IMG/VR virus record: IMGVR_UViG_3300039191_000410
Coordinates: 1 to 20,753 of that record
DNA: 20,753 bases
Source of the DNA: a virus
Direction: 5' to 3' (one strand)
The notes beneath the pieces were generated by a model. The model made no database searches. It was not told the DNA's origin and saw only the letters and a list, made by a program, of their open reading frames with translations. A program made the position numbers and the translations under genes. This document shows positions 7,955-20,075 of the stretch, piece by piece. How positions within the stretch are numbered: position 1 is the stretch's first letter; each line of letters begins with the position of its first letter.

Positions 7955-8446
7955 TTATTGTTCCATACCACAGTGTTCACAAACCCATGATTCTTTTTCT
8001 TTATCCCAAAAGAAATCATGTGTATATTCCATACCATCTTCTTCCATTTGTTCTCTACACTCACATTCTTCTGGCTCAAACCAAGGTCCATCTTCCGAAT
8101 CATCTTCATCATCTTCATCATCTTCAAATTCTTCAAACCCATTAGATTCATTGGACTTTGATTTTCTTTTTAAGATTTCCTCAAGTAATATATGTGCCCA
8201 AATTTCTTTATCCTCAGCTTTATTTTTAACTCTATCATCAATTATAGCATTTAAAGAATTTTTAAGGTGATCAAGTGTCATTTTACTAACTGGTATTTTT
8301 TGACCATCCTTTGTGACCCATATAGGTGTTTTAGTTTCTGAATGTGAATATCTATCATCATTAGCAAATTCACCATCAACTCCACCGATATAGTTTGGTT
8401 CACCGTTTACAGATTGATATGTTTCAAATTTTCTTAAATACTTCAT
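7955..8446 (-). CDS. Tagged zinc-ribbon protein, function unknown
   Basis: 163 residues, starting MKYLRKFETYQSVNGEPNY, which matches the shared tag. A second block, WVTKDGQKIPVSKMTLDHLKNSLNAI (about 43-68), is a recurrent phage/bacterial motif with W.T.DG..I....M...HL.N. An acidic linker (EEFEDDEDDEDDSED) follows. The C terminus has CECREQMEEDGM and WVCEHCGMEQ, two Cys pairs that could hold one zinc. The modular make-up (tag, HL.N motif, acid run, zinc ribbon) suggests a small binding protein and not an enzyme. A CTTAATATATAA element sits 17 bases upstream of the ATG. It is divergent from the plus-strand gene at 8499. Confidence 0.75.
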   Translation of the reverse strand: MKYLRKFETYQSVNGEPNYIGGVDGEFANDDRYSHSETKTPIWVTKDGQKIPVSKMTLDHLKNSLNAIIDDRVKNKAEDKEIWAHILLEEILKRKSKSNESNGFEEFEDDEDDEDDSEDGPWFEPEECECREQMEEDGMEYTHDFFWDKEKESWVCEHCGMEQ

Positions 8447-8462
8447 AGTTCTATTTGTTTTT

Positions 8463-8474
8463 TTATATATTAAG
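8463..8474 (-). promoter_or_regulatory. Candidate late promoter in a divergent intergenic space
   Basis: CTTAATATATAA on the minus strand, 17 bases from ATG 8446. The same 52-base space holds TTAAATATATA on the plus strand (8483-8493), ending only six bases from ATG 8499. The space may thus carry back-to-back promoters. Confidence 0.4.
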
Positions 8475-8498
8475 TTCCAATCTTAAATATATAGTAAT

Positions 8499-9203
8499 AT
8501 GGGAGAATTAATAGACGTTATAGAAAACCAATCAAAAGGAAATATTGTTTCTTATTACAAAGAAAACACCACCCTACTTTATAATTATTACAGAGGGGTT
8601 AACCCTCATCCAGATATGGCTCCCAAATATGCAGTAAAACCATTACCTATTAGTAAAATGGAAAGTGGTATGTTTTATTTTATGACATATAAAGATGAAT
8701 CAAATTGGATGAGAAATTCACCTATATTTTTTGTGGATTGGAAAGAATTTGAAGGTAGAATAATTGGTTATGGTATTAACTTAAACTTTATCCCTTTAGA
8801 AGTCAGAGCTTCTATATTTGATGAAATGATCGATAACTTAGAAGAAGAAGATCAAATCAATGGAATATCTTTCGAAGAAATGTATAAGAGGTTATTAAGG
8901 GTAGGATATGAATATTCACTCGTAGAGTATGACATGAGTAGAATAGAGTCTGTTTTCCATATCTCTGTTCATATATTACCACGTTTTTTATATTCATCTT
9001 ATCCTACTAATAAATATGATCCTAAAAAGTTATATAGTATATGGCTCAAAAAATTAGAAACAAGGGAGTTACGACACCAAGAAATAATCACACAGTTATC
9101 AGAAGACTTATTTAAAACAACCGAAGAAATAGAAATGAAGTATGATGCTTTATCAGATCATATGAAAAGATTTAAAAGAAATCATGATAAATTTGGTAAA
9201 TAA
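8499..9203 (+). CDS. Phage protein of unknown function, possible virion component
   Basis: 234 residues, no signal peptide or membrane segment. The central part reads MFYFMTYKDESNWMRNSPIFFVDW and then GRIIGYGINLNFIPLEVRASIFDEMI. This kind of block (a Y-F motif, a 'proline, hydrophobic' strand and G.N..F.P...R) occurs in uncharacterised structural proteins of T4-like phages, but I cannot name the family. The C-terminal 60 residues are a charged probable coiled coil (LETRELRHQEIITQLSED onward). It is the first gene of the plus-strand cluster 8499-10748. A short stem over its stop codon (9193-9212) may be a weak terminator. Function unassigned. Confidence 0.8.
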   Translation: MGELIDVIENQSKGNIVSYYKENTTLLYNYYRGVNPHPDMAPKYAVKPLPISKMESGMFYFMTYKDESNWMRNSPIFFVDWKEFEGRIIGYGINLNFIPLEVRASIFDEMIDNLEEEDQINGISFEEMYKRLLRVGYEYSLVEYDMSRIESVFHISVHILPRFLYSSYPTNKYDPKKLYSIWLKKLETRELRHQEIITQLSEDLFKTTEEIEMKYDALSDHMKRFKRNHDKFGK

Positions 9204-10351: not shown

Positions 10352-10376
10352 TATAATGAACAAAAATAATATTATT

Positions 10377-10748
10377 ATGAAAGATTTAAAACACTTAAAG
10401 ACATTCGAAAATTTTAGAGTAGATGAAGAAATATCTCTTCCTTTTATGGGAAGTAAAAAGAAAGATCTTCTTAAAGGACTAAAGGAAGAAACAGAATTTT
10501 TAGCTTCTAATCCGCTTGCTGATGAGGTTAAAGATCTATATAAAAAGTATAAGTCTGATAAAGATAGAAACGCTTTGAGAAAAGCAAACTCTATACTTAC
10601 TAAATTTGCTGAATCTGAATTAGGTAAAACTAAAAAAGCGGCTACTGACTTTATGAGAAATGTTTATAGAATCATTGAAGATAGAGTTGAAGAATTAGGT
10701 GCTGAAGCTATGAAAGGTGGAAGAGGAGGATCGTCTGCTAGTACATAA
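10377..10748 (+). CDS. Tagged helical protein, candidate internal head protein
   Basis: 123 residues from MKDLKHLKTFENFRVDEE; an ATG at 10356 would add seven residues but sits almost on the promoter element. The start is a longer version of the shared tag, with T-F-E followed by N. The rest is almost wholly helical and lysine-rich (KKKDLLKGLKEETEFLASNP, then LYKKYKSDKDRNALRKANSI, then a long amphipathic helix) and ends in GGRGGSSAST. The size, basic helices and tag fit a DNA-associated internal head protein like T4 IPs. It is the only tagged gene on the plus strand here. A strong terminator follows its stop. Confidence 0.75.
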   Translation: MKDLKHLKTFENFRVDEEISLPFMGSKKKDLLKGLKEETEFLASNPLADEVKDLYKKYKSDKDRNALRKANSILTKFAESELGKTKKAATDFMRNVYRIIEDRVEELGAEAMKGGRGGSSAST

Positions 10749-11127: not shown

Positions 11128-11679
11128 TTAGTCATTGTCTGTTATTGGTTTGATAATCACTTCCATTTTTCTACCATTTAATTTTGGCATATTTTCTGCT
11201 GTTCCGTGATCTGAAAGTGATTGCACAAATTCTAAAAGTAATTTTTCACCCCTTTCTTTAAATGTAATTTGTCTACCTCTAAAGAAAACTCCAACTTTTA
11301 CTTTGTTACCCTTTTCTAAGAATTTGATAGCGTTATCTTTTCGATAACTAAGGTCATTTTCTTCGGTATTAGGTCCGAACTTAATCTCTTTAGTTTGAAC
11401 TTTCTTAGATTTCTTTTTCAACTCCTTTTCTTTTTTCTTCTTATCATAAAGGAATTTTTTATAATCTATTATCTTACAAACTGGAGGGTTAGCATTTGGA
11501 GAGATTTCTACCAAGTCCATTTCCATATCCCTAGCCATTGAAAGAGCTTCTCCTTTGGAATAAATTCCAGGAGAGTCGATATTATCACCAACTACTCTTA
11601 CCTCAGTTACCCTGATACGGTTATTTATTCGGTGTTCTTCTTCTTTTTTCTTAAAGTTGTTTCTTCTTCTTTTAGACAT
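11128..11679 (-). CDS. infC: Translation initiation factor IF-3
   Basis: 183 residues, full-length with both domains. The N-terminal domain has HRINNRIRVTEVRVVG and LVEISPNANPPVCKIIDYKKFLYD. A lysine-rich linker follows (KKKKEKELKKKSKK). The C-terminal domain has KEIKFGPNTEENDLSYRKDN, KVGVFFRGRQITFKERG and a final strand KMEVIIKP. IF-3 binds the 30S subunit, keeps 50S away and checks the start codon and initiator tRNA. The sequence is of the Bacteroidota kind, including the basic N-terminal extension MSKRRRNNFKKKEEE. IF-3 genes in phages are uncommon but have been reported in huge phages. The start is three bases after the glutamine synthetase stop, so the two are almost surely cotranscribed. 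All core regions look intact. Confidence 0.96.
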   Translation of the reverse strand: MSKRRRNNFKKKEEEHRINNRIRVTEVRVVGDNIDSPGIYSKGEALSMARDMEMDLVEISPNANPPVCKIIDYKKFLYDKKKKEKELKKKSKKVQTKEIKFGPNTEENDLSYRKDNAIKFLEKGNKVKVGVFFRGRQITFKERGEKLLLEFVQSLSDHGTAENMPKLNGRKMEVIIKPITDND

Positions 11680-11682
11680 ATA

Positions 11683-12708
11683 TTATTTTAAAATTGTTTC
11701 TATTAATTTATTTGATATTAAATAAGGATCAGCATTTGAAGCTGGTCTCCTATCTTCTATATAACCTGGTGTCTTAGAATCATTAATACTACTTGGTATT
11801 CTTATTGAGGCTGTTCTATCACCCTCTCCCCAAGTGAAATCTTCTAATGTAGGTGTTTCATTTTCACCAGTTAACCTTTCTTGGTTACCTTCACCATACA
11901 CTAATATATGATCTTTATGGCTATTTTCCAACTTTTTACAGTAAGAAATTGCGATTTCAGATTTATTTTCTAAGTTTTCCCTTAATTCTTTTGTAGAGAA
12001 GTTAGCATGTAAACCAGATCCATTCCATTCTCCACCACCAAATGGTTTAGGTTCAATATTTATAGTGTAATTATACTTTTCGCCTAACCTATAAAGTAGG
12101 TATCGAGAAACCCATAATTGATCTGATCCATCAAGTGCAGTAACTGGACCAACTTGATATTCCCATTGACCTAACATAACTTCGGCGTTTATACCAGAGA
12201 TATTGATACCCGCTTCTAAACAAGCATCTAAATGTTCCTCAACAAATTTTCTACCCGATACATGATTAGCACCAACACCACAATAATAATCTCCTTGTGG
12301 TTTAGGGTAAGTTCCTATTTGACCAGGCCACCCTAGAGGTCTTTTTGTTGTATTATCATAAATGATATATTCTTGTTCAAACCCATACCATGTTTCATCA
12401 TCATGTTCGATATTTTCTTCAAGTAAACTTCTGTTGTTTGATTCATGTGGAGTCATATCTGAATTGTAAACCGAACACATTACTAATAATGATCCTTCTC
12501 TAAATGGGTCTTTAAAAATGTTTTTTGGTTTTAACATCATTTCTGAATCACCACACTCAGCTTGAGATGTAGATGAACCATCATAATTCCATATAGGTAG
12601 TTCTTCTACTGTAACATTTTCGGGAGTCTTTTTTGTATCCCAAATCTTGGTTTTTGATCTTAACAATTGGACTTTATTTCCATCCAACCAAATATATTCT
12701 AACTTCAT
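11683..12708 (-). CDS. glnII: Glutamine synthetase, type II (GSII)
   Basis: 341 residues, the length of the compact GSII enzymes found in eukaryotes and Bacteroidota, not the 450-700 residues of GSI or GSIII. It makes glutamine from glutamate, ammonia and ATP. Visible motifs: WNYDGSSTSQAECGDSE (41-56), GFEQEY with the metal-binding Glu pair (111, 113), GINAEVMLGQWEYQVGP with Glu 176 and 183, NGSGLHANFS with His 234, ERLTG, DRTASIRIP (298-305) and the closing EDRRPASNADPY. All active-site positions are kept. GSII lacks the Tyr used for adenylylation of GSI. It lies between a DUF2061 protein and IF-3 in one operon. In a phage it would be an auxiliary metabolic gene supplying glutamine for nucleotide and protein synthesis; that purpose is inference. 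Confidence 0.96.
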   Translation of the reverse strand: MKLEYIWLDGNKVQLLRSKTKIWDTKKTPENVTVEELPIWNYDGSSTSQAECGDSEMMLKPKNIFKDPFREGSLLVMCSVYNSDMTPHESNNRSLLEENIEHDDETWYGFEQEYIIYDNTTKRPLGWPGQIGTYPKPQGDYYCGVGANHVSGRKFVEEHLDACLEAGINISGINAEVMLGQWEYQVGPVTALDGSDQLWVSRYLLYRLGEKYNYTINIEPKPFGGGEWNGSGLHANFSTKELRENLENKSEIAISYCKKLENSHKDHILVYGEGNQERLTGENETPTLEDFTWGEGDRTASIRIPSSINDSKTPGYIEDRRPASNADPYLISNKLIETILK

Positions 12709-12751: not shown

Positions 12752-12985
12752 TTATATTTCACCACTTTTATTGTGATCTATTCCATATTTACTTTTATAC
12801 CATAACCTTTCATGGAAATAATAAAGTATCATCTTAGTGAATAACTCTACTCCCCCAATCTTTAATCCAACCAAAGGGTTTCCTGATATTAACCACGCAA
12901 GTAACATAGTATCTAGTGTACCCACAATTCTCCATGTGATGGTTTTTAAAATATGTCGTTTTTTATCTATCTTTGGTTTTTCCAT
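12752..12985 (-). CDS. DUF2061 membrane protein
   Basis: 77 residues. It matches the small DUF2061 family: KTITWRIVGTLDTMLLAWLISGN, then GLKIGGVELFTKMILYYFHERLW. Two hydrophobic segments (about 15-34 and 39-57) are followed by the conserved YY.HER.W end. Members are integral membrane proteins of unknown role, common in Bacteroidota and often near sulfate-assimilation genes. It is the first gene of the run leading to glutamine synthetase, 43 bases upstream of it. An AATTTAATATATA element starts six bases before its ATG, so if this is a promoter the mRNA would be almost leaderless. Confidence 0.85.
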   Translation of the reverse strand: MEKPKIDKKRHILKTITWRIVGTLDTMLLAWLISGNPLVGLKIGGVELFTKMILYYFHERLWYKSKYGIDHNKSGEI

Positions 12986-13037: not shown

Positions 13038-13517
13038 ATGAAAACACACTTTAAAGATAAAAACATGAATATAATTTTAATTGGAAATTACAGTGATACT
13101 CTTAGGTATTCTAGTATGTTAAGTAAAGCATATGATTTGATAAAAATAGACAGTGACTTAGTATTAAGTCAAAATAATATTATTGTTGGTAAAAGTGGGA
13201 TGCAGTCTCTATTTGAAACAGTGTTTCATACTTTAATGTTAGAACACATGCAAGTTATGTCTTTTCACCAATTAAAAACTGGATTTGTGTTTATAAAATA
13301 CCCAAAGCATAAATCACAAATTTCAGCAATTGAAAGGAAATTTAATACTAAAATGGATTTAATCATTGATTTATCTGATGGTAAAATGATTAATGATTTG
13401 GATGAGTCAGACGTTCCATTACTTACTATAGACAATAGTAAAAGCTCTGAGGAAATTGGTAATGAAATCCGAAAGTCAATTGTAAGAAGATTTATGAAAA
13501 AATCTGTGGGTTTATAA
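13038..13517 (+). CDS. Hypothetical protein
   Basis: 159 residues; the ATG at 13068 (MNIILIGNYSDTLRY) may be the true start since the first strand of the fold begins there. The order strand (NIILIG), helix (TLRYSSMLSKA), strand (LIKID), then FVFIKYPKH and MDLIIDLSDG looks like a Rossmann-type alpha/beta domain, but there is no P-loop or other known active-site motif. The C terminus is basic (RKSIVRRFMKKSVGL). It is divergent from the DUF2061 gene and its 3' end overlaps the tagged gene at 13512 by six bases in convergent order. No family recognised. Confidence 0.75.
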   Translation: MKTHFKDKNMNIILIGNYSDTLRYSSMLSKAYDLIKIDSDLVLSQNNIIVGKSGMQSLFETVFHTLMLEHMQVMSFHQLKTGFVFIKYPKHKSQISAIERKFNTKMDLIIDLSDGKMINDLDESDVPLLTIDNSKSSEEIGNEIRKSIVRRFMKKSVGL

Positions 13518-14069
13518 AATAAAGTTTGAGATATCAGCTCCATGTTCTCCTAAAATATTCAAAATTTCTTCAAAATAATATTGAGATGGTCTACCATCTT
13601 TAATAAAGGATATAGCTGTTCTTTTATCTATTTGTCCGATTTTTTCTTTAAATTCTGAATCTGGTATATCTGTTTCTTCTAACATATCAATGATCTCCAT
13701 TCTATTTAAAATATAAAAATCTTGTTTTTCCCTATCCATTGTTTTAGCAGTTTTAGGAGAATCGATTTTTTCATTTATTTCGTTATCCATTATAGACTTC
13801 AATATCTCGTGAAGCAATTCATCACCGGGAAGATCCAACCTACCTTCTTTATGTCTATTTTCAAGATTTTTGAGCAAAACATTTAAATCATCATATGTTT
13901 TTAGATTTTCAATAGCTCCTAACAAATCAGATAAACTATATTTCTCTTTAACATCATCAGAAAGACTATCTATAAATTTATATGTTGGTAATAGTTGTTG
14001 TACCAAAAGAGGTAGATCATCTTCATGAATTGACTCGTTAATTTGATTGAATTTCTTTAAATGTTTCAT
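13512..14069 (-). CDS. Tagged helical protein, function unknown
   Basis: 185 residues starting MKHLKKFNQINESIHEDD, one of the clearest examples of the shared tag; I-N-E followed by S is an ideal site for a gp21-type protease. The rest is acidic and nearly all helix, with LLVQQLLPTYKFIDSLSDDV, then LSDLLGAIENLKTYDDLNVL, and a C-terminal block SQYYFEEILNILGEHGADIS. No enzyme motif is visible. An ATTAATATATAA element lies 22 bases upstream of the ATG. Probable internal head protein by the tag; otherwise unknown. Confidence 0.8.
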   Translation of the reverse strand: MKHLKKFNQINESIHEDDLPLLVQQLLPTYKFIDSLSDDVKEKYSLSDLLGAIENLKTYDDLNVLLKNLENRHKEGRLDLPGDELLHEILKSIMDNEINEKIDSPKTAKTMDREKQDFYILNRMEIIDMLEETDIPDSEFKEKIGQIDKRTAISFIKDGRPSQYYFEEILNILGEHGADISNFIL

Positions 14070-14168: not shown

Positions 14169-14537
14169 TTAAATATTGTGCATTCCTTGCCCATCATTGA
14201 TAGAGTTTATGGAGAACACTTTAGGTTTATAATTGTCATTTGTACCTTTTCTTTTATAAAGTGAATTGAACCCTTTAGCTAATCCTCTTTTAAATACTTC
14301 GGTGAAATAAGCAAATGCGTTTTTTGATTTTTCTTCATTGAAATTATACCAGTTATCATACATATCTAAAAGTCCTGATTGGTAACAATCTTTTCGATCA
14401 TCTTCATTCCAATATCTCATTTTTTTAACTGTTCTTTTTCCTAAGAGTTCCAACATCTTTTCACTCTTTCTTGTTAGGTTTCCTTTAGCTTTAGAAACTA
14501 TTATTTCATAATAAAGTTCTTTGTTTGATAAATACAT
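14169..14537 (-). CDS. gp55: Late-transcription sigma factor, T4 gp55-like
   Basis: 122 residues, shorter than T4 gp55 (185). The start MYLSNKELYYEII matches the family's opening (NNKEL...I). The core DCYQSGLLDMYDNWYNFNEE, then NAFAYFTEVFKRGLAKGFNS and LYKRKG corresponds to sigma region 2, which binds the RNA-polymerase clamp and opens the -10 box. No region 4 is present, as in gp55, so there should be no -35 recognition. In T4 gp55 works with gp33 and the sliding clamp to read late promoters. The repeated TTTAATATATA element in this window is the obvious candidate target. It has its own terminator and stands as a single gene. The family call is good, the target is inference. Confidence 0.8.
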   Translation of the reverse strand: MYLSNKELYYEIIVSKAKGNLTRKSEKMLELLGKRTVKKMRYWNEDDRKDCYQSGLLDMYDNWYNFNEEKSKNAFAYFTEVFKRGLAKGFNSLYKRKGTNDNYKPKVFSINSINDGQGMHNI

Positions 14538-14685: not shown

Positions 14686-15969
14686 TTATTTTCTAACAAC
14701 TTCCTTGTACATAGTTTCTTTGGTTGCTTCCAAATCAGAAACTAGTCTATCTTTTTCAGATTTAAGCCCAGTTAAAGCGTCTGATAATGTTTTAGATTCT
14801 CCTAACATTGTAAGGTTTGTTTCAACTTTATCAATGTTTTTATCTAGATCATCAATGTTCATTTCAATTTCTCTAACTCTATCTTCAAGTTTTCTCTTAG
14901 TCTTAACTTCATCACTTATTTTATCTTCATAGAAATAAGTTAAATCGTAACTCATGTTATTCTTAACATCATCGATAAGTTCCATAGCTGATTCGTATTT
15001 GTAAAATGAATTACCATATCTTGAATCACATGTGTATAAATATACATTATCTTTGAAGTTGAATGCGAATGACTCCATGAATGGGTTTGTTAAATTAGAA
15101 ATGTGTTTAACTACATCCAATTCTACAAACTTATCTAAGTTAGAAGATACTTCTCTTATTAGTGGGAAGAAATTCTTATTTACAATAGGTACAATAGGAG
15201 AAGAGAATAAGTTCTCTAAAGTAGTTTCTTTTGAAACTTTTTCTTCATTAATGAATATATCATTACTTTCCTTTGTTGATAAACCTATCGTTAAACTTTC
15301 AGATATTTTAAAATCTACTCTTTCTTCTGATATCTCAGCGTACTTTAGAGCTGATTCTAACGTTCTTAAAAGTCTTAATTTATCTTGATCTTTAACGTGA
15401 TCCTCAAGAACTGTTTTATCTATTGAATCTTCTTTTAACAAGAACCATGAATCCTTTAAGAAAGCTACATGTCCTTCTTCTACTGATTCAACAATAGTGT
15501 AAACTGATGTTGAAGAACCACCATTTAAAAGGTTTTGTCTTTTTTCTGGCGATTGAGTCAAGTTGTGAATAAAAGTCTTAATTTCCGGAACCCAGTCATA
15601 AACTGCTAATTCGTTCATTATCTTAGACATTCTGTCTTCATCGTTATCAAGGTTTATAATCTGTAATAACACATTTAATGGGTGTCTGTATACCATCCCA
15701 TTATCTCTTGATTCAACAACTTTGTATAAATCTTTTAGTTCATAAAGCAGTTCGTGTATTTGTAAATCTTCACCTAAGCTTTCAACTAACGACTTAACAT
15801 CATCTTGATAAGTGTATTTTTCTAGCTTTTCAGATAAAGATTGAATAACTCTTTTCTCAGAAGAATTATCAAGAGCTTTTATATGAGCTTCAACAATATT
15901 CTCAACATCTGACTGTTCATATTCTAACCCTTTTTTAAACCCGAAAAGTTTTACTTTCAAATCTTTCAT
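14686..15969 (-). CDS. Large hypothetical protein with C-terminal coiled coil
   Basis: 427 residues, acidic, with no signal peptide. The N-terminal 160 residues are helical (SLSEKLEKYTYQDDVKSLVE, HPLNVLLQIINLDNDEDR). The middle is mixed alpha/beta, with VAFLKDSWFLLKED and FAFNFKDNVYLYTCDSR. The last 75 residues form a strong heptad coiled coil (KRKLEDRVREIEMNIDDLDK and on). MKDLKVKLFGF is only distantly like the shared tag and I do not count it. An exact TTTAATATATA lies 33 bases upstream of the ATG, so it is probably expressed late and in quantity, fitting a virion or scaffold-like role. Codon use is less AT-rich than in its neighbours, with few rare codons, as for an abundant protein. Family unknown. 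Confidence 0.85.
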   Translation of the reverse strand: MKDLKVKLFGFKKGLEYEQSDVENIVEAHIKALDNSSEKRVIQSLSEKLEKYTYQDDVKSLVESLGEDLQIHELLYELKDLYKVVESRDNGMVYRHPLNVLLQIINLDNDEDRMSKIMNELAVYDWVPEIKTFIHNLTQSPEKRQNLLNGGSSTSVYTIVESVEEGHVAFLKDSWFLLKEDSIDKTVLEDHVKDQDKLRLLRTLESALKYAEISEERVDFKISESLTIGLSTKESNDIFINEEKVSKETTLENLFSSPIVPIVNKNFFPLIREVSSNLDKFVELDVVKHISNLTNPFMESFAFNFKDNVYLYTCDSRYGNSFYKYESAMELIDDVKNNMSYDLTYFYEDKISDEVKTKRKLEDRVREIEMNIDDLDKNIDKVETNLTMLGESKTLSDALTGLKSEKDRLVSDLEATKETMYKEVVRK

Positions 15970-16106: not shown

Positions 16107-16307
16107 ATGAGGAAAATAATTTTCAAAATAATAATTTATTTAATTGTATGTATAGGATTCTTATTCCTTGCTGTTATTTCAACACTTAAAAGTGTACCAT
16201 TTTTGATTCCACACATTTTCCTATTAACATCATTTGTTTATTGTTTAAGTTTAATTAAACAAAGAAAAAAGTATATAGAAATAAGAAAAAATAAATTTAA
16301 AGATTAA
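16107..16307 (+). CDS. Small two-span membrane protein
   Basis: 66 residues from MRKIIFKIIIYLIVCIGFLF; an ATG at 16053 would add 18 residues across an AT-rich promoter-like stretch (TTATATATTTAGATATAATA), so the later start is preferred. Two membrane segments (about 4-24 and 32-50) are followed by a basic tail (KQRKKYIEIRKNKFKD). The basic ends predict both termini inside the cell. It is convergent with the tail gene at 16304 and shares four bases with it. Function unknown; a small phage inner-membrane protein. Confidence 0.6.
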   Translation: MRKIIFKIIIYLIVCIGFLFLAVISTLKSVPFLIPHIFLLTSFVYCLSLIKQRKKYIEIRKNKFKD

Positions 16308-17293
16308 TCCCTATCTATCTTCATCTGAATAGTTTCTTGTTCAGAGTCAATTTCAATTTTAACATAATAAATTCCAGTAGAATACTTATCCTTATCACTT
16401 ATATCAAGTGTTAGGTTAACCACACCTTCATCAAACCTTTCCCCAAATTCTATCGTATCTAAAACTCTAGCCATGTGATCAAATATCTTAACAGTAATAT
16501 CACCTGGACTTGATAACGATAACTTTAAATTAACCTCATCATCCTCATTATAATTAGGAACTCTCGGTGTTAGATCAGCATTAAATGAGATAGGTATTTT
16601 ACCTCTTTGAGAATATTTAATTTGGTTATACCAAGTAGCTCCCCTTGCTGGAGCTGTTGTATTTTCATTAAATGCAGGGTAATAACTATGAACTTCAAAA
16701 GCAATAGTTAATTTTTTCTCATCAGTCGTTCCTAAATTATGTTCCCTAGCTATCTCTATTTGGTTTTCGTCTGGAACTACAAGAACGGCATCAATATTCA
16801 TAAAGTTATGTTCAAAGTACATATACTTAAACATCCATAATGTATTCATTATACTTTGAGAAGCCTTGAATATATCAATTTCTGAATTAACTAAAACAGT
16901 CAACTCATAATTTGCAATTATCGGTAAAGCTCTCACTCTCGATAAAACATTCTTAATCTCTTCTTGATTTTCAACTACCATACGTAACCAAACATTAGGG
17001 TTAGCAAATTCCTCACCCTTTATCCTCATACCATTTAAAGTAACATGACCTCTTGGGTACATATCAGTATTCAATTCAACTTTCCTTTCACTAGACGCAA
17101 TATCATCTACAAACGAATCCATTAAATAATCTTCATTACCTGTTAAAGAATAGTAAATCTTACAATCCACATCTTTAGGTCCAGATTCGAAAACATTTGT
17201 CCACTTTATTTTATTTTCAAGGTTAGACAAGAGACATACGGTTAAATCTCTGAAGTAAACGTCATCAAAGTTAAATTTTTCATTTATAGGCAT
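16304..17293 (-). CDS. gp15: Tail sheath stabiliser / tail completion protein, T4 gp15-like, with extra C-terminal Ig-like domain
   Basis: 329 residues against 272 in T4. The first 240 follow gp15: FRDLTVCLLSNLENKIKW with VFESGPKDVDCKIYYSL (T4: FRRY..L...L.SNIQIKRQLESG.K...V.I.Y), then YELTVLVNSEIDIFKASQSI, then DAVLVVPDENQIE and KLTIAFEVHSYYPAF. gp15 forms a hexamer that caps the finished tail and sheath and joins it to the neck. The remaining 80 residues are added: DITVKIFDHMARVLDTIEF and LTLDISDKDKYSTGIYYVKI, an Ig-like strand pattern much like FlgD-type and type IX secretion C-terminal domains of Bacteroidota. A TTTATATATA element lies 24 bases upstream. The gp15 match is from motif memory, not a search. 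Confidence 0.7.
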   Translation of the reverse strand: MPINEKFNFDDVYFRDLTVCLLSNLENKIKWTNVFESGPKDVDCKIYYSLTGNEDYLMDSFVDDIASSERKVELNTDMYPRGHVTLNGMRIKGEEFANPNVWLRMVVENQEEIKNVLSRVRALPIIANYELTVLVNSEIDIFKASQSIMNTLWMFKYMYFEHNFMNIDAVLVVPDENQIEIAREHNLGTTDEKKLTIAFEVHSYYPAFNENTTAPARGATWYNQIKYSQRGKIPISFNADLTPRVPNYNEDDEVNLKLSLSSPGDITVKIFDHMARVLDTIEFGERFDEGVVNLTLDISDKDKYSTGIYYVKIEIDSEQETIQMKIDRD

Positions 17294-17373: not shown

Positions 17374-18324
17374 ATGTTAAAACAGAACTTTTTTAAAACT
17401 AAATATCGACCTAAGAACTTAGATGAACTAGTACTTTTACCTAGAATAAGAAAGATAATTGAAAATGGAATACATAACCATTTTATTTTCTACGGACCTT
17501 ATGGGATGGGTAAAACAGCTTTAGTAGAACTACTGTGTAAAGGTAGACCCTATTTAGAACTTAATACATCAAATGAAACAGGTATTGAAACTTTAAGGAC
17601 AAAGGTAGATGACTTTTGTTCAAAGATGTCAATGTTTGATAGTAAAGATGACTTAAAAATTGTTTACTTAGATGAGATCGATGGTGCATCCTCAGCTTAT
17701 CAAGACGCTCTTAAACGTTTCATTGAAAAGAATGAAAGAAATGTTAGGTTTATAGCTACTACAAATTATATCAATAGAATAGATGGTGGAGCTTTAGATC
17801 GGTTCTTTAAGGTTGACTTTTCTCCACAAGATCAAAAAGAAGTTAAATACCTAAAAGTGAATTATGCTAAACGATTAGTTACAATTTCAAAACAAGAAGA
17901 AATTGATATATCACCTGATGATATAAAAAGTATAGTCAATAAGAATTTCCCATCTTTTAGGAAAATGTTATCAGTCTTACAACATATAAAAATCACTGGT
18001 GAAATGAACTTTTCAGTGAAATCTTTTGATGAAGAATTAAAAACTGACTTATATCAGCAAATTCTAAATTCAGATGATACTGAGAAAAATTATCACTTCC
18101 TTATGGATAAGTTCGGTCCTGATCAAATGGATGAATTAATATCACTTTTAGGTAGACCATTCATAGAGTTTATAGCGGTTAACAAAAAAGATAAAATTTC
18201 TAAGTTAGGAGATATACTTGTTTTAGTAACAAAATATGGAGATATTTTAGACAAAGCAAACTCAGCTGATCCATTAGTAATTGGAACATCATTAATGTAT
18301 GAAATACAAAAAGAATTAAAATGA
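17374..18324 (+). CDS. gp44: Sliding-clamp loader ATPase, T4 gp44 / RFC-like
   Basis: 316 residues, close to T4 gp44 (319). An AAA+ ATPase that opens and loads the DNA-polymerase clamp. Visible elements: N-terminal KYRPKNLDELVL, Walker A GPYGMGKT (41-48), Walker B IVYLDEID (96-103), sensor 1 RFIATTNYI, an arginine in GALDRFFKVDF where the SRC motif normally sits (S and C replaced), and sensor 2 region FPSFRKML as in T4 (FPDFRKT). The C-terminal collar domain is helical. In T4 the loaded clamp also activates late promoters together with gp55, so this gene links to the sigma factor at 14169. It is the first gene of a plus-strand run with folD. The partner gp62 subunit is not in this window. Confidence 0.92.
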   Translation: MLKQNFFKTKYRPKNLDELVLLPRIRKIIENGIHNHFIFYGPYGMGKTALVELLCKGRPYLELNTSNETGIETLRTKVDDFCSKMSMFDSKDDLKIVYLDEIDGASSAYQDALKRFIEKNERNVRFIATTNYINRIDGGALDRFFKVDFSPQDQKEVKYLKVNYAKRLVTISKQEEIDISPDDIKSIVNKNFPSFRKMLSVLQHIKITGEMNFSVKSFDEELKTDLYQQILNSDDTEKNYHFLMDKFGPDQMDELISLLGRPFIEFIAVNKKDKISKLGDILVLVTKYGDILDKANSADPLVIGTSLMYEIQKELK

Positions 18325-18384: not shown

Positions 18385-19245
18385 ATGAACGAAATTACTA
18401 TTTTAGATGGAATTAAAGTTTCCAACGAAATTAAAGAAGATCTCAGACGAGATATAAAAAAACTACCTAGAAAACCTAGAATGTCTATTATCATGGTTGG
18501 TGATGATCAAGCATCACAAGCTTACGTTAATGCTAAGGTAAGAAGTTGTAAAGAGGTTGGTATTGATTGTCAACTAATTTTAATGCCTGAGGAAACACGA
18601 CAAATAGATTTGTTAAACCAAATATCATCTCTAAATGATGATTCTAAAGTTGATGGATATATTGTTCAACTCCCATTACCCCAACACATTGATAAGGATA
18701 AAGTTATTGATAAAATATCTCCCGAGAAAGATATCGATGGTTTTCATCACACCAATATTGGTAGAATGACTTTAAATCTACCAACTATATTACCAGCAAC
18801 TCCTTTTGGGATAATGTCATTGATAAGACATTACAATATTGAACTAGAGGGTAAAAATTGTGTTGTAATTGGTAGAAGTGATATTGTTGGATTACCTATC
18901 AGTATAATGATGGGACACGATGATCAATGTACAGTAACATCTTGTCATGTGAATACTAATAACTTAAAAGATTTCACTAAGATGGCTGACATTCTAATCG
19001 TATCAGTTGGGATTCCTAATTTCGTAACTGAAGACATGGTTAAAGAAGATAGTGTTGTTATTGATGTTGGTATAAACAGAGATGAAGAAGGAACACTAAT
19101 AGGAGATGTTGATTTTGATAACGTTTCAAAGAAAACATCATATATTACACCAGTTCCTGGTGGAGTCGGTCCTATGACAATCGTGTCACTTATGCGTAAC
19201 CTAGTTTACGCCACAAAAAATAATGTTGAAAATGGATACTATTAA
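18385..19245 (+). CDS. folD: Bifunctional methylene-THF dehydrogenase / methenyl-THF cyclohydrolase
   Basis: 286 residues, normal FolD length. It interconverts 5,10-methylene-, methenyl- and 10-formyl-tetrahydrofolate with NADP+. Key parts: SQAYVNAKVRSC with the Tyr and catalytic Lys (47, 51), DGYIVQLPLPQHID with the Gln, EKDIDGFH with the Asp, PATPFGIM, the dinucleotide site VVIGRSDIVGLPIS, and the signature TPVPGGVGPMTIVSLMRN. All are intact, so it should be active. In a phage it would feed one-carbon units to purine and thymidylate synthesis during DNA replication, or formyl groups to initiator tRNA; the latter would suit a phage that also carries IF-3. TTAGATATATA lies about 21 bases upstream. 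Its end overlaps the next small gene by 14 bases. Confidence 0.96.
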   Translation: MNEITILDGIKVSNEIKEDLRRDIKKLPRKPRMSIIMVGDDQASQAYVNAKVRSCKEVGIDCQLILMPEETRQIDLLNQISSLNDDSKVDGYIVQLPLPQHIDKDKVIDKISPEKDIDGFHHTNIGRMTLNLPTILPATPFGIMSLIRHYNIELEGKNCVVIGRSDIVGLPISIMMGHDDQCTVTSCHVNTNNLKDFTKMADILIVSVGIPNFVTEDMVKEDSVVIDVGINRDEEGTLIGDVDFDNVSKKTSYITPVPGGVGPMTIVSLMRNLVYATKNNVENGYY

Positions 19246-19700: not shown

Positions 19701-20075
19701 TTAACCAAAGAACGCATTTACTTCTGCGTCTCGAATTTTAACATCAATAAACATCATGTCTGAGAATTCCATAGGGTTTTGAGAAAATGTAACATTTAAC
19801 TCATACCCTATATCATCTAATTCAGGTATATAATCTGAAAATTGCTTAGCTAACTCTCCTTTCACAAAATCAGCATTAACATTAGTTTCAAATAAATATC
19901 TTTGTAGATCTCCACCAAAGTTAGGATCTCCAAGTAACTCACCTCTATTTGTAAAAAGAATCATTTCTATTTTCTGAATAATAACTTTAATTATTTCATC
20001 CTCAATTATCTCTATATCGTTAAATTTAGGATGTCCTGGGAATTTTATGTAAAAATCTGTAAAATCTAAAGCCAT
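19701..20075 (-). CDS. gp25: Baseplate wedge protein, T4 gp25-like
   Basis: 124 residues, near the size of T4 gp25 (132). The family motif is clear: MILFTNRGELLGDPNFGGDLQRYLF (about 38-62), with the R-G-E and F-G signature also seen in P2 gpW-type and type VI TssE proteins. The C terminus IGYELNVTFSQ and MMFIDVKIRDAEV follows as the usual strand pair. gp25 sits at the hub end of the baseplate wedge and starts sheath assembly. An exact TTTAATATATA lies 23 bases before the ATG, so it is a likely late gene. It is convergent with the small plus-strand genes. The start MALDFTDFYIKFPGHP is well placed. Confidence 0.92.
   Translation of the reverse strand: MALDFTDFYIKFPGHPKFNDIEIIEDEIIKVIIQKIEMILFTNRGELLGDPNFGGDLQRYLFETNVNADFVKGELAKQFSDYIPELDDIGYELNVTFSQNPMEFSDMMFIDVKIRDAEVNAFFG

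Follow-up and report, generated by a model that had tools for sequence, protein, structure and literature searches.

A metagenomic fragment of 20,753 bases from an IMG/VR record (hereafter the window, meaning the whole stretch of DNA that was analysed) carries a gene for a class II glutamine synthetase (GSII) next to infC, the gene for translation initiation factor IF-3. The locus raises the question of whether this glutamine synthetase (GS) is genuine, how long phages have carried it and what it would do during infection. The best explanation, which we regard as likely, is that the window encodes a genuine and probably active GSII that has long been resident in huge T4-related phages, probably phages of Bacteroidota.

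Gene content and phage origin of the window

The phage origin of the window is firm. Genes for a T4-type portal, a clamp loader and gp25- and late-sigma-like proteins flank GSII, and the earlier note's reading of the stretch as phage DNA is borne out by these hallmark genes on both sides and by synteny that recurs elsewhere. The portal gene (3520..5229, minus strand; Portal_T4, E 1.9e-58; 64% identity to LR756502) forms the left side of a conserved block. Next to it lies a gp4-like head-completion gene (5276..5847, minus strand; split over two ORFs by a frame break at a run of 11 A residues), whose name is our own reading, made without a profile match. The block also holds o8499 (8499..9203, plus strand) and o16304 (16304..17293, minus strand), two conserved proteins without assigned function. 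Its right side begins with a late sigma factor-like gene (14169..14537, minus strand; phrog_234, E 6e-7), whose product is 66-80% identical in relatives. It continues with o14686 (14686..15969, minus strand), a clade-specific protein whose only matches in the phage collection were in five records of huge phages, a gp44-like clamp loader ATPase (17374..18324, plus strand; phrog_168, E 6.7e-51) and a gp25-like baseplate wedge protein (19701..20075, minus strand; phrog_261, E 3.2e-7, with Pfam GPW_gp25 below cut-off).

The window portal is nearest to those of the huge phages of Al-Shayeb et al. (634-735 kb), at 64%, 61%, 56% and 50% identity, and the five records nearest to o14686 are likewise 634-735 kb phages from that study. 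The largest genomes described there were placed in the Mahaphage clade, and Bacteroidetes hosts were predicted for the genomes over 634 kb (Al-Shayeb et al., 2020; PMC7162821). The order of portal, late sigma, clamp loader, gp25 and o14686 genes is the same in the Mahaphages LR756502 and LR745206 as in the window. Read from the portal, the clade-specific protein and the gene order of a 20.7-kb fragment, within which no terminase was recognised, the window probably belongs to a Mahaphage-type lineage of huge phages, whose genomes span 540-735 kb. The T4-type portal and the synteny rule out a giant eukaryotic virus or a cellular contig as the source. The host was probably a member of the Bacteroidota, and the similarity of the window IF-3 is in keeping with this: it scored up to 203 bits against Bacteroidota IF-3 (54-57% identity in the best matches) and more weakly, up to 145 bits, against Pseudomonadota IF-3.

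Several other features of the window were recorded. A complete FolD (methylene-THF dehydrogenase/cyclohydrolase) is encoded at 18385-19245, with counterparts in Lak phages (47-49% identity) and LR745206 (52%). An ankyrin-repeat-like protein at 2-439 is open at the left edge of the window. The window shares the frame break of the gp4-like gene at the 11-A run with L160, a near-identical contig; the gp4-like gene of L005 (about 8372-8924) is broken at a 10-A run, and the gene is unbroken in L007 and L148; the frame could be restored by polymerase slippage or recoding. Immediately upstream of the window's gp4-like gene is a gene for a free-standing HNH endonuclease.

Several otherwise dissimilar small proteins share an MKHLKKFESF-like leader, five of them in the window (1381-1626, 3200-3484, 7955-8446, 10356-10748 and 13512-14069) and four in L148 (4659-5132, 5137-5907, 13531-13863 and 13908-14342). 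The strict form of the leader was present in 10 of 230 ORFs from 11 phage sequences, as against none of 60 ORFs from cellular loci. It is reminiscent of the capsid-targeting leader of T4, which is cleaved by the prohead protease.

The GSII gene and its product

The ORF at 11683..12708 is on the minus strand, starts with ATG and encodes 341 amino acids followed by a stop codon, with no internal stops. The NCBIfam GlnII profile matched over its full length (positions 4-328 of 333; E 3.4e-112), and Pfam Gln-synt_N and Gln-synt_C both scored above their gathering thresholds. The GlnII score of 375 bits is below the equivalog cut-off of 500 bits, a database naming threshold that does not imply a biological feature; 29 Bacteroidota GSII proteins also fall below it (370-430 bits), so that the cut-off shuts out a whole branch rather than the window protein alone. 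Solved GSII enzymes matched the window protein with E values from about 1e-96 (plant GSII) to 1e-83. The GSI profile (462 positions) aligned with it at positions 46-365 only; the beta-grasp and GS catalytic domains are present and the C-terminal extension of GSI is not, and the 341-residue chain is within the span of about 330-370 amino acids typical of GSII. The adenylylation loop sits in the C-terminal part of GSI.

Sixteen catalytic or ligand positions were checked against maize GS; the window protein has the maize residue at each, and none of them varied across the GSII rows, 84 viral and 59 cellular. From GSI and GSII structures, we take these positions to be the metal ligands, the ammonium-site aspartate, the flap glutamate, arginines, the glutamate-binding Asn-Gly and the nucleotide site. 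An AlphaFold model (pLDDT 87.5) superimposed on maize GSII (2d3a) with a TM score of 0.92 and an rmsd of 1.7 Å, and the best 50 PDB matches listed for the model were all GSII enzymes (TM 0.88-0.92). Domain order and active site are those of bacterial GlnII and the cytosolic GS of plants and animals (about 46% identity and TM 0.90-0.92 to maize 2d3a and Streptomyces 4bax); unlike these enzymes, the window GSII is phage-encoded, diverged and placed in a virus-only clade. The ORF encodes a genuine class II glutamine synthetase, and the claim of a complete type II enzyme with all its active-site residues stands; the strand, left unstated in the earlier note, is the minus strand.

The dN/dS ratio in close GSII pairs was about 0.03-0.12 (distant pairs, in which dS is saturated, were left out), and by this measure strong purifying selection acts on the close pairs. 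Such selection, together with an active site that is intact, argues for an enzyme that is predicted to be active. Both also bear on a role other than glutamine synthesis, either as a moonlighting protein or pseudo-enzyme (for example, a decoy for host nitrogen sensing) or as a ligase with another substrate. Distant amidoligases of the GS fold are frequent in phages, and a divergent GS homologue near the GSII of another jumbo phage, L065, has changed glutamate-binding and flap motifs, which indicates that functional drift occurs in phages. However, the ammonium, metal, glutamate and nucleotide-site residues checked are invariant throughout the 84 viral rows and selection on the close pairs is strong, and we regard such a role as quite improbable.

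The GSII-infC junction

The earlier note had described the GSII gene as packed between a DUF2061 gene and infC, and its linkage to IF-3 as a novel combination. The infC gene (11128..11679, minus strand; Pfam IF3_N and IF3_C, NCBIfam infC above cut-off) is on the same strand as GSII, with its ATG 3 nt past the GSII stop codon (TAA-TAT-ATG). On this side the packing is as tight as described; on the other, the gene for the small DUF2061 membrane protein (12752..12985, minus strand; PF09834, E 1.1e-23) ends 43 nt upstream of the GSII start, a looser arrangement than had been implied.

A functional module, by which the phage would co-regulate glutamine supply and translation initiation, could account for the 3-nt gap on one strand, and the junction between the GSII C-terminus and infC is repeated in contig L160. 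That contig is near-identical to the window and the junction was seen again only there, so the arrangement looks lineage-specific. Among 40 viral-contig records with GSII, many of them fragmentary, none yielded an IF-3, and, unlike in the window, it was not found in LR756502 or LR745206. LR756501 encodes both proteins about 99 kb apart, and LR756504 and LR756500 have IF-3 without GS. The neighbours of GSII also vary among relatives; in L005 they are, by eye, a small DNA-binding-like membrane protein and an adenylate-kinase-like protein. IF-3 in huge phages had itself been reported in 2020 (PMC7162821). The module reading is accordingly given little probability and was dropped as a conserved feature, as IF-3 was not found in the 40 GSII records and is unlinked in relatives. 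The spacing was thus correctly noted, and a meaningful combination of the two genes was not upheld. From the comparison of gene neighbourhoods, the adjacency of GSII and infC most likely represents a lineage-specific arrangement, and a functional pairing is unlikely.

GSII in a conserved slot of huge phages

A pattern scan identified at least 243 IMG/VR stretches that encode GSII relatives, and synteny was counted in the best 80 of these. The block was defined as the portal, o8499, gp4-like, sigma, o14686, o16304, clamp loader and gp25 genes. Two or more block genes lie beside GSII in 38 of the best 80 of at least 243 loci, and 34 of the same best 80 have block genes on either side of the slot. 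In most block-bearing loci GSII is between the gp4-like and sigma genes, and in a subgroup (L008, L010, L012-L014, L016, L072 and L073) it is on the portal side of the gp4-like gene. GSII is also inside the same block in the complete phages LR756502 (642 kb) and LR745206 (634 kb). The search of viral databases for GSII near phage hallmark genes that the earlier note had proposed was therefore positive, with 38 block loci and two complete phages.

The slot can also be empty. LR756504, a 636-kb relative, keeps the block, with about 0.3 kb between its gp4-like and sigma genes. A search of its genome gave no GS gene, which indicates that this phage, at least, can do without one. In LR756501 (735 kb), GSII is located elsewhere than in the slot. 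GSII is encoded in four GenBank huge-phage records, which represent three distinct genomes. With these records, at least 243 IMG/VR stretches and a published GS in moraphages (PMC12619734), the description of the enzyme as very unusual in phages was overstated. Judged from synteny, GSII is a long-standing resident gene of a huge T4-related phage lineage, and a stray pick-up is excluded. As a homologue of a host enzyme that lies between phage hallmark genes and is under purifying selection, it is a candidate auxiliary metabolic gene.

Phylogeny of the viral GSII proteins

In a GSII tree of 97 rows, the window protein is one of 12 rows that form a virus-only clade (support 100/98); it lies closest to L007 (64% identity) and L005 (63%). 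A second virus-only clade of nine rows (support 100/99) holds LR756502 and LR745206, whose GSIIs occupy the window's slot but are about 50% identical to the window protein. Both clades occupy the same genomic block. A common origin of the two, tested for a group that was named after inspection of the tree, was not rejected (p-AU 0.162). The window GSII is diverged from all sampled bacterial GSIIs, and in one pattern-limited scan of 84,980 genomes no bacterial GSII more than 70% identical was found inside the viral clade. Viral GSIIs are long-branched, so their kinetics could differ.

These data were set against recent capture of the gene from the current Bacteroidota host, as a transient auxiliary metabolic gene. 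In a broader tree the viral GSIIs are united with Bacteroidota GSII, and the GSIIs of L150 (a 735-kb phage) and L036 fall among Saprospiraceae sequences; the GSII of LR756501, placed among Saprospiraceae GSIIs, is a probable separate acquisition. For the window, however, the highest identity to any cellular GSII found is about 54%, as against 64% to a phage GSII; the virus-only clade is well supported and the same slot is used in many diverged phages; and the GC3 of the gene (0.19) is in line with that of other phage genes. The tree gives no support to a recent capture of the window GSII, which we consider very improbable. An assembly chimera or bacterial contamination that put a cellular GS into a phage contig, conceivable for a metagenomic fragment of only 20.7 kb, is refuted for practical purposes by the hallmark phage genes on both sides of GSII, by the same junction in near-identical contig L160 and by synteny that recurs in dozens of contigs and two complete phages.

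Predicted role during infection

On the reading preferred here, that of a long-resident and probably active enzyme, GSII would convert glutamate, ammonium and ATP to glutamine in the infected cell. It is predicted to act outside host control, having no adenylylation loop and belonging to a class absent from most sampled Bacteroidota. A full-length GSII match was obtained in only 29 of 148 sampled Bacteroidota genomes, so that the class of the phage enzyme would often differ from that of the likely host's. With this class and no adenylylation loop, the glutamine pool would stay high, and during the copying and translation of a very large phage genome it may supply the synthesis of nucleotides, amino acids and amino sugars. 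The points that we infer are enzyme activity, when the gene is expressed, the escape from host control, the benefit to metabolism and the phylum of the host, along with the phage control of nitrogen assimilation suggested in the earlier note.

Glutamine-dependent enzymes encoded by the phage itself were considered as a sink and are unsupported in the two syntenic complete phages, LR756502 and LR745206, in which no glutamine amidotransferases of PF00117 or PF13522 were found; any glutamine would there feed host enzymes. In L065, which represents a separate jumbo-phage lineage, a purF-like gene about 6 kb away from GSII and a neighbouring guaB-like gene (both named by eye) fit a nucleotide-related role in that phage. 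The divergent GS homologue of L065 (13509-14789; 426 amino acids) lies about 2.5 kb from its GSII, has WAGSG in place of WNGSG, lacks the flap HET motif and is possibly a changed or inactive GS. Near it are nagB-, purF- and guaB-like genes and nifS/iscU-like genes.

Relation to published phage glutamine synthetases

That GS occurs in huge phages of Bacteroidota is already known: in the available part of the report on moraphages, GS is present in 9 of 25 and is discussed as a nitrogen auxiliary gene (PMC12619734, 2025). Moraphages are large phages with predicted Bacteroidota hosts, as is the window phage, and form a lineage of their own (200-307 kb); GS class and genomic position are not stated in that part of the text. 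Genes named glnA on virome and jumbo-phage contigs have been assigned to nitrogen assimilation (PMC13037316; PMC11944383), in the available portions without the class, synteny and phylogeny given here for the window. The words glutamine and nitrogen are absent from the main text on the Mahaphages (PMC7162821). The GSII class, the conserved Mahaphage-type slot and the two virus-only clades were not found stated in the accessible parts of the published reports of phage GS.

Phage GSII adds no new kind of system, and a virus-only GSII clade of diverged sequences can go unseen in lists of 'glnA auxiliary genes'. Some of the largest known phages would, given an active enzyme, carry their own entry point for ammonium into metabolism. 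The gene offers a testable handle on the nitrogen demand of a phage of more than 600 kb, for which the versions of the slot with and without GSII form a natural comparison. A broader proposal, tentative and in our view slightly on the doubtful side, is that GSII is ancestral and near-core in the largest known phage lineage, where a single acquisition from a Bacteroidota-like source was followed by a split into two highly diverged viral versions in the same slot. Were this true, the infection programme of these phages would include nitrogen assimilation as a regular component, and not as the work of an occasional auxiliary gene.
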